Positions 34,963 to 35,619 of a DNA stretch of 38,604 bases are shown piece by piece; the stretch's first letter is position 1, and each line of letters opens with the position of its first letter. The notes beneath the pieces were generated by a model. That model was given only the letters and a program-made list of their open reading frames with translations. It had not been told where the DNA came from and did not search any database. A program made the position numbers and the translations under genes. Origin of the DNA: Acidobacteriota bacterium (lineage in GTDB: Bacteria; Acidobacteriota; Terriglobia; Acidiferrales; UBA7541). The stretch covers positions 1-38,604 of the forward strand of contig QHYR01000104.1 of the NCBI GenBank assembly GCA_003223315.1, in the 5' to 3' direction.

Positions 34963-35508
34963 TCACGTGGCCGCATGCTTCTCGGGCAAAGGGCAAAATG
35001 CGCCTTCGGAGAAGCCCGACGAGCGCACGCCGAAGACGCGATTGAAGCGGGCCTGGTAGTTCTCCCAGGCGATCGTTGCGGCGAGCTCGACGAGCTGTGC
35101 TTCGTCGAACTGTCTGCGCAGGCGTTCGGTCAGCTCGCTCGGGATGTCGGCGGGCGTCTTCGCCATCGCGACGGCGAGATCCAGCGCGGCGCGTTCGAGG
35201 CCGTCGAAAGCCTCGCTGCTCTCGTAACGGCTTAATTCCATGAGTTGCTGCTCGGTGATGCCCATCTCCCTGCCGACGGCAGAGCCGATGTCCAGTCAGA
35301 ACGGGCAGCCGATGAGAGCGCTGGTTTTGACGCGCGCCAACGCTTTGAGGCGACCCGGCACGCGACCGCTTGCTAAGAGAGCGGTCTCGAAGGCATTCAC
35401 GCCGAGCAGCAACGCGGGACGACGGCGCAAAAGCCGCAGTGTATCCATGGGGCGCTTCTTGCGGCGCAGCACTCGCAGGAAGGCCATCCACCTGGCGATC
35501 AGTCCCAT
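34963..35508 (-). CDS. AhpD-like/carboxymuconolactone decarboxylase-family protein, putative selenoprotein (UGA at 35296-35298)
   Basis: ORFs 35296-35523 and 34963-35265 are in the same frame and join through one TGA: ...ALARVKTSALIGCPF[TGA]LDIGSAVGREMGITEQQLMELSRYESSEAFDGLERAALDLAVAM...ENYQARFNRVFG. The TGA sits at the second Cys of a CxxC motif. Confidence 0.75.
35268..35284 (-). promoter_or_regulatory. Putative bacterial SECIS hairpin
   Basis: Minus strand CUCUGCC-GUC-GGCAGGG, 7-bp stem (one G-U), 3-nt loop starting with G; loop begins 19 nt after the UGA. Confidence 0.6.
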
Positions 35509-35619
35509 GTCATCTCCACGCATTGACGATGTTTAATTAGATGGCCCATGCGTGCCGCGGTTAGATGGCAGAGATGCCCTTAGGGCCCACTACGGTTGAT
35601 CGCTCTTTACCGCACCAGG

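Follow-up and report, generated by a model that had tools for sequence, protein, structure and literature searches.

We report that a gene on the minus strand of an acidobacterial contig, split in two by an in-frame UGA, is best read as one continuous selenoprotein gene. Comparative sequence evidence indicates that the UGA at positions 35296–35298 almost certainly directs the insertion of selenocysteine (Sec) at residue 71 of a 181-residue protein of the CMD/AhpD family. The window, meaning the whole 38,604-nt stretch of DNA analysed (contig QHYR01000104.1, assembly GCA_003223315.1), comes from a metagenome-assembled genome (MAG) of 381 contigs that is 91% complete.

A sequence-only reading of the window had proposed that two open reading frames (ORFs) in the same frame are divided by a single TGA. 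Sequence and ORF translation confirm this codon as the sole break between them, and gene callers would see two ORFs across it, as had been expected. Joining them yields the 181-residue product, recoded at residue 71 in the context TSALIGCPF-U-LDIGSAVGRE, which scores 39.1 bits against the Pfam CMD model (PF02627; gathering cut-off 23). The locus comprises the following features.

35514–35517, minus strand: GGAG, which lies 5 nt upstream of the ATG and is a likely ribosome-binding site (consensus match only)
34963–35508, minus strand: complete predicted selenoprotein gene, with ATG at 35508, 181 codons and the true stop TGA at 34965–34963 (read-through translation, Pfam CMD, alignment A1)
35173–35418, minus strand: CMD/AhpD domain, residues 31–112 (Pfam PF02627)
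35305–35307, minus strand: Cys68 codon, first residue of CxxU and presumed resolving Cys (invariant in alignment A1)
35296–35298, minus strand: in-frame UGA, predicted to be read as Sec71 (the closest homologues all have TGA here, and more distant ones have Cys)
35268–35284, minus strand: candidate apical hairpin of the SECIS, CUCUGCC-GUC-GGCAGGG, which is part of the coding sequence (fold, presence in 37/40 UGA genes, covariation, codon bias)
34993–34995, minus strand: codon of Cys172, which lies in FCPLPE near the C terminus and may be a third redox residue (conservation of 90% or more in alignment A1)

An AlphaFold model of the 181-residue protein (pLDDT 80.5) is all-helical, with Cys68 and Sec71 located where a helix begins; the C-terminal tail with Cys172 is a low-confidence region of the model. 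The open frame of 110 codons that follows the TGA is weak evidence when taken alone, about 5% of base shuffles giving the same. Scans of the locus for sigma-70 promoters and terminators found none. When the window was scanned for other recoded UGAs by hairpin and open frame, eight further frames were returned; these show no recognisable redox motif and were taken as chance.

The window alone is suggestive; the comparison with homologues is decisive, because the TGA, the frame and the hairpin are conserved in dozens of them. Among 60 relatives, the top ten homologues apart from the window gene each have an in-frame TGA at the Sec codon, and TGA stands at the same codon in a 78% identical gene of a named Acidobacteriota MAG (L052, JAGWOX010000135.1). 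Across 59 distinct homologues this column holds Sec in 40, Cys in 19 and nothing else, as would be expected if, as had been suggested, the TGA occupies a Cys position of CxxC. By a simple count against the closest relative, dN/dS is about 0.26 before the TGA and 0.10 after it, and on these ratios both halves of the gene are under purifying selection. Of the refuting conditions named in the sequence-only reading, those on Sec machinery in the genome and on a conserved Cys or Sec at this column both turned out in favour of the initial assignment as a probable AhpD/CMD-family selenoprotein. One relative, in MAG FW021_bin.48 (L054:1916-2179), is 81% identical over residues 89–176 and lacks the Sec-bearing middle in frame, which may reflect either a misassembly or a decayed copy. 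In some genomes, G003 and G128 among them, the family is represented by two UGA-bearing genes.

The stretch just downstream of the UGA folds into the SECIS-like hairpin that the sequence-only reading had picked out, with a 7-bp stem, a 3-nt loop, GUC, that begins with G, and 18 nt between the UGA and the loop. The minimum free energy (MFE) of the 45-nt fold is −18.4 kcal/mol (z = −2.0; 9/200 shuffles fold as well). The published bacterial SECIS model specifies a 3–9-nt loop with G in loop positions 1–2, a 4–16-bp stem, a spacing of 16–37 nt and an MFE of −7.5 kcal/mol or lower (PMC13188914), and the window hairpin falls within every one of these constraints. A stem of at least 6 bp is present at the SECIS position in 37 of the 40 UGA genes, in 1 of the 19 Cys genes and in 6.5% of shuffles. 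The hairpin also covaries: in the alignment of the clade to which the window gene belongs (CxFU, below), standard pairs fill 93% of pair cells and changes on both sides are seen at four of the seven pairs, and in the other Sec genes the corresponding values are 100% and six of seven. None of 500 shuffles reached the covariation score, and controls in which the position was slid collapsed. This alignment excludes one CxFU gene, L058, whose best stem lies two or three bases out of register.

As the hairpin doubles as protein-coding sequence, codon choice was used to tell selection on the RNA from selection on the protein. Arg at U+9 is encoded by AGA or AGG in 14 of 14 cases, compared with 29 of 313 at other positions of these genes; for Ser at U+5 the codon is TCT in 13 of 15, compared with 13 of 213. 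Individual genes depart from the common pattern: the nearest relative (L052; 1405–1600) keeps a 6-bp stem, but its loop, AUUUG, lacks the G normally found near the loop start, perhaps making this an atypical SECIS, and two others (L031 and L057) have weakened stems. An Rfam scan of the locus gave no match, which says little because short bacterial SECIS elements are poorly covered in Rfam.

The machinery that the sequence-only reading had proposed to look for is encoded in the same genome: one selA (555 bits), selB as a single ORF of 637 residues that scores above cut-off, selD (367 bits) and a tRNA-Sec whose anticodon is UCA, the full set required for a bacterial selenoprotein. Among 396 sampled genomes of the phylum, selA was found in 36 of 37 with a TGA-bearing homologue versus 35 of 78 with only TGA-free ones (Fisher P = 7 × 10^−9, a nominal value because the genomes share kinship). 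The sole UGA-bearing genome without a detected selA (G156) is a MAG of about 750 contigs. In genus g5 of the sister ExYU clade, Cys occupies the Sec column in two genomes in which selA was not found (L040 in G019, 97% complete; L042 in G034, only 72% complete). A selA match in another genome (G048:C56:5613-6755) holds an in-frame TGA and is without the first 71 model positions, which marks either a decaying selA or an assembly fault.

Sec71 occupies the second Cys position of CxxC in an alignment with PA0269. In Mycobacterium tuberculosis AhpD, Cys133 attacks the peroxide and Cys130 resolves. Alignment and mapping from the literature match Sec71 to this Cys133 and to Cys51 of PA0269 (PMC3141380). 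In eight Cys homologues, which belong to family f11 (L071, L073, L074, L076, L077, L079, L081 and L082), Thr replaces the first Cys, and the second, in the Sec column, is retained. Given this mapping and these Thr variants, Sec71 more likely attacks than resolves; the TGA lies at a Cys of CxxC, as first noted, and the proposed resolving role probably passes to the other position.

In the tree, the window gene falls in a clade of 23 genes that we call CxFU (22 Sec and 1 Cys; support 95/98), which has largely lost the AhpD proton relay. The relay Glu is kept in all 36 genes outside the clade and in 2 inside it, and the relay His in 35 of 36 outside and 4 inside. The window protein has Cys68 and Sec71 but Ala56 for the Glu and Gly75 for the last His, and so does not carry the complete five-residue relay (Glu, Cys, His/Tyr, Cys, His); with neither Glu nor His in place, it should not be taken for granted that the protein is a peroxidase. 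The loss suggests an altered chemistry in the CxFU clade, perhaps because a selenol can ionise unaided. L062, the only Cys member of the clade, likewise lacks both Glu and His, so that the link between relay loss and Sec is not proven, and the strict idea that loss of these residues requires Sec is weakened. We raise only tentatively, and with some doubt, a broader reading in which CxFU-x-D genes form a distinct, nearly Sec-only subfamily that extends beyond Acidobacteriota to one or more other phyla, in which Sec replaced the Glu/His relay, a selenol needing no base for its ionisation, and which may use a non-peroxide substrate.

For the window protein, we propose that SelB with Sec-tRNA-Sec would bind the hairpin just downstream of UGA 35296–35298, and that the ribosome would insert Sec71 to give an all-helical protein of CMD/AhpD fold with its Cys68-Pro-Phe-Sec71 site at the start of a helix. 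The Sec71 selenol could then attack an oxidised substrate, for which a hydroperoxide or a disulfide is the likeliest candidate; Cys68 would resolve the product as a selenenylsulfide, and a thiol donor would recycle the enzyme, perhaps with help from Cys172. We give this putative peroxide or disulfide chemistry roughly even chances. An ftsZ-like ORF lies upstream in the window, and the neighbours in L052 look unrelated; the neighbourhood therefore gives no clue to the substrate, and an explanation through an operon or a partner gene was rejected because the neighbours differ. The protein is best described as a putative stand-alone selenol oxidoreductase, 'stand-alone' because no partner gene is conserved beside it.

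The selenoprotein might instead be a reductive dehalogenase-like reductase akin to the debrominase Bmp8. Both a profile comparison (2.5 × 10^−14, positions 19–172) and a fold comparison rank Bmp8 (6ohi) among the closest solved structures, and the AhpD proton relay is gone in most of the CxFU clade. Iodothyronine deiodinases, which remove halogens, are Sec enzymes. Simple AhpD-like proteins (2gmy, 2ijc) nevertheless outscore Bmp8, and halogen-metabolism neighbours were recognised neither in the window, where the gene lies beside ftsZ, nor in L052; we consider a dehalogenase improbable.

Two further explanations dispense with Sec altogether. If a Cys codon had been mutated or misread as TGA, the gene would yield a truncated 70-residue product and a 3′ ORF that is dead or internally started, which would suit a window taken from a MAG and the two ORFs that gene callers would see; but the same TGA recurs in independent genomes, the sequence downstream of it bears the mark of purifying selection and a covarying hairpin is tied to it, and we regard a pseudogene or assembly error as highly improbable. 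It is barely conceivable that the UGA is read as another amino acid, through reassignment of the code or plain read-through with Trp, for although an in-frame UGA by itself does not reveal the inserted residue, this gene itself ends at a genuine UGA stop, as do many other predicted ORFs in the window, the homologues show Cys and not Trp at the column, and neither the hairpin nor the association with selA would have an explanation.

With Sec as the preferred reading of the codon, the locus is a clean case of a gene that standard ORF calling cuts in two. Only three selenoprotein families with four proteins were listed for Acidobacteria in 2006 (PMC1794560). Many such genes are probably mis-annotated, because selA is present in 257 of the 396 sampled genomes of the phylum, or about two thirds. 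The CxFU clade is also a natural setting in which to ask whether Sec can take the place of the acid–base relay in an AhpD-type active site.

The window gene adds a new, well-supported member to a class of selenoproteins that has been known since 2005. AhpD-like (COG2128/YciW) and CMD-domain (PF02627) selenoproteins with CxxU were described in the Sargasso Sea and GOS surveys of 2005 and 2008 (PMC1088965, PMC2398784), so the sequence-only reading was right that the class already existed; a literature search for this subfamily, or for Acidobacteria selenoproteins of this kind, returned nothing specific. The best NCBIfam match is NF053654 (GroundWater_YciW, 'YciW-related (seleno)protein'; residues 26–164, 2.8 × 10^−32), at 111.9 bits against a cut-off of 310, which places the window protein outside that equivalog; a sister-clade member with UGA in CEFU (L061) passes at 324 bits. 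All the selenoprotein models found in NCBIfam score the branch of the window gene below their cut-offs, and the window protein also falls just short of the cut-off for the AhpD core domain TIGR00778 (25.3 versus 27.8 bits). Among solved structures, PA0269 of Pseudomonas aeruginosa (2ijc, 2o4d) superposes on the model with a TM-score of about 0.9 by target length and an rmsd of 1.3 Å, its CxxC in register with the CxxU; in contrast to the window protein, it has Cys rather than Sec and keeps the relay Glu36 and His55 (PMC3141380). Bmp8 shares the fold and gives a nearly full-length profile alignment, including the helices after the active site, but has CxxC instead of CxxU, a different genomic context and 22–23% identity. 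Like the Sargasso Sea and GOS selenoproteins, the window protein combines a CMD domain, Sec at the second Cys position and a bacterial SECIS after the UGA, whereas the CPFU-x-D motif of its clade and the loss of relay Glu and His in most members would set it apart from that class as published.
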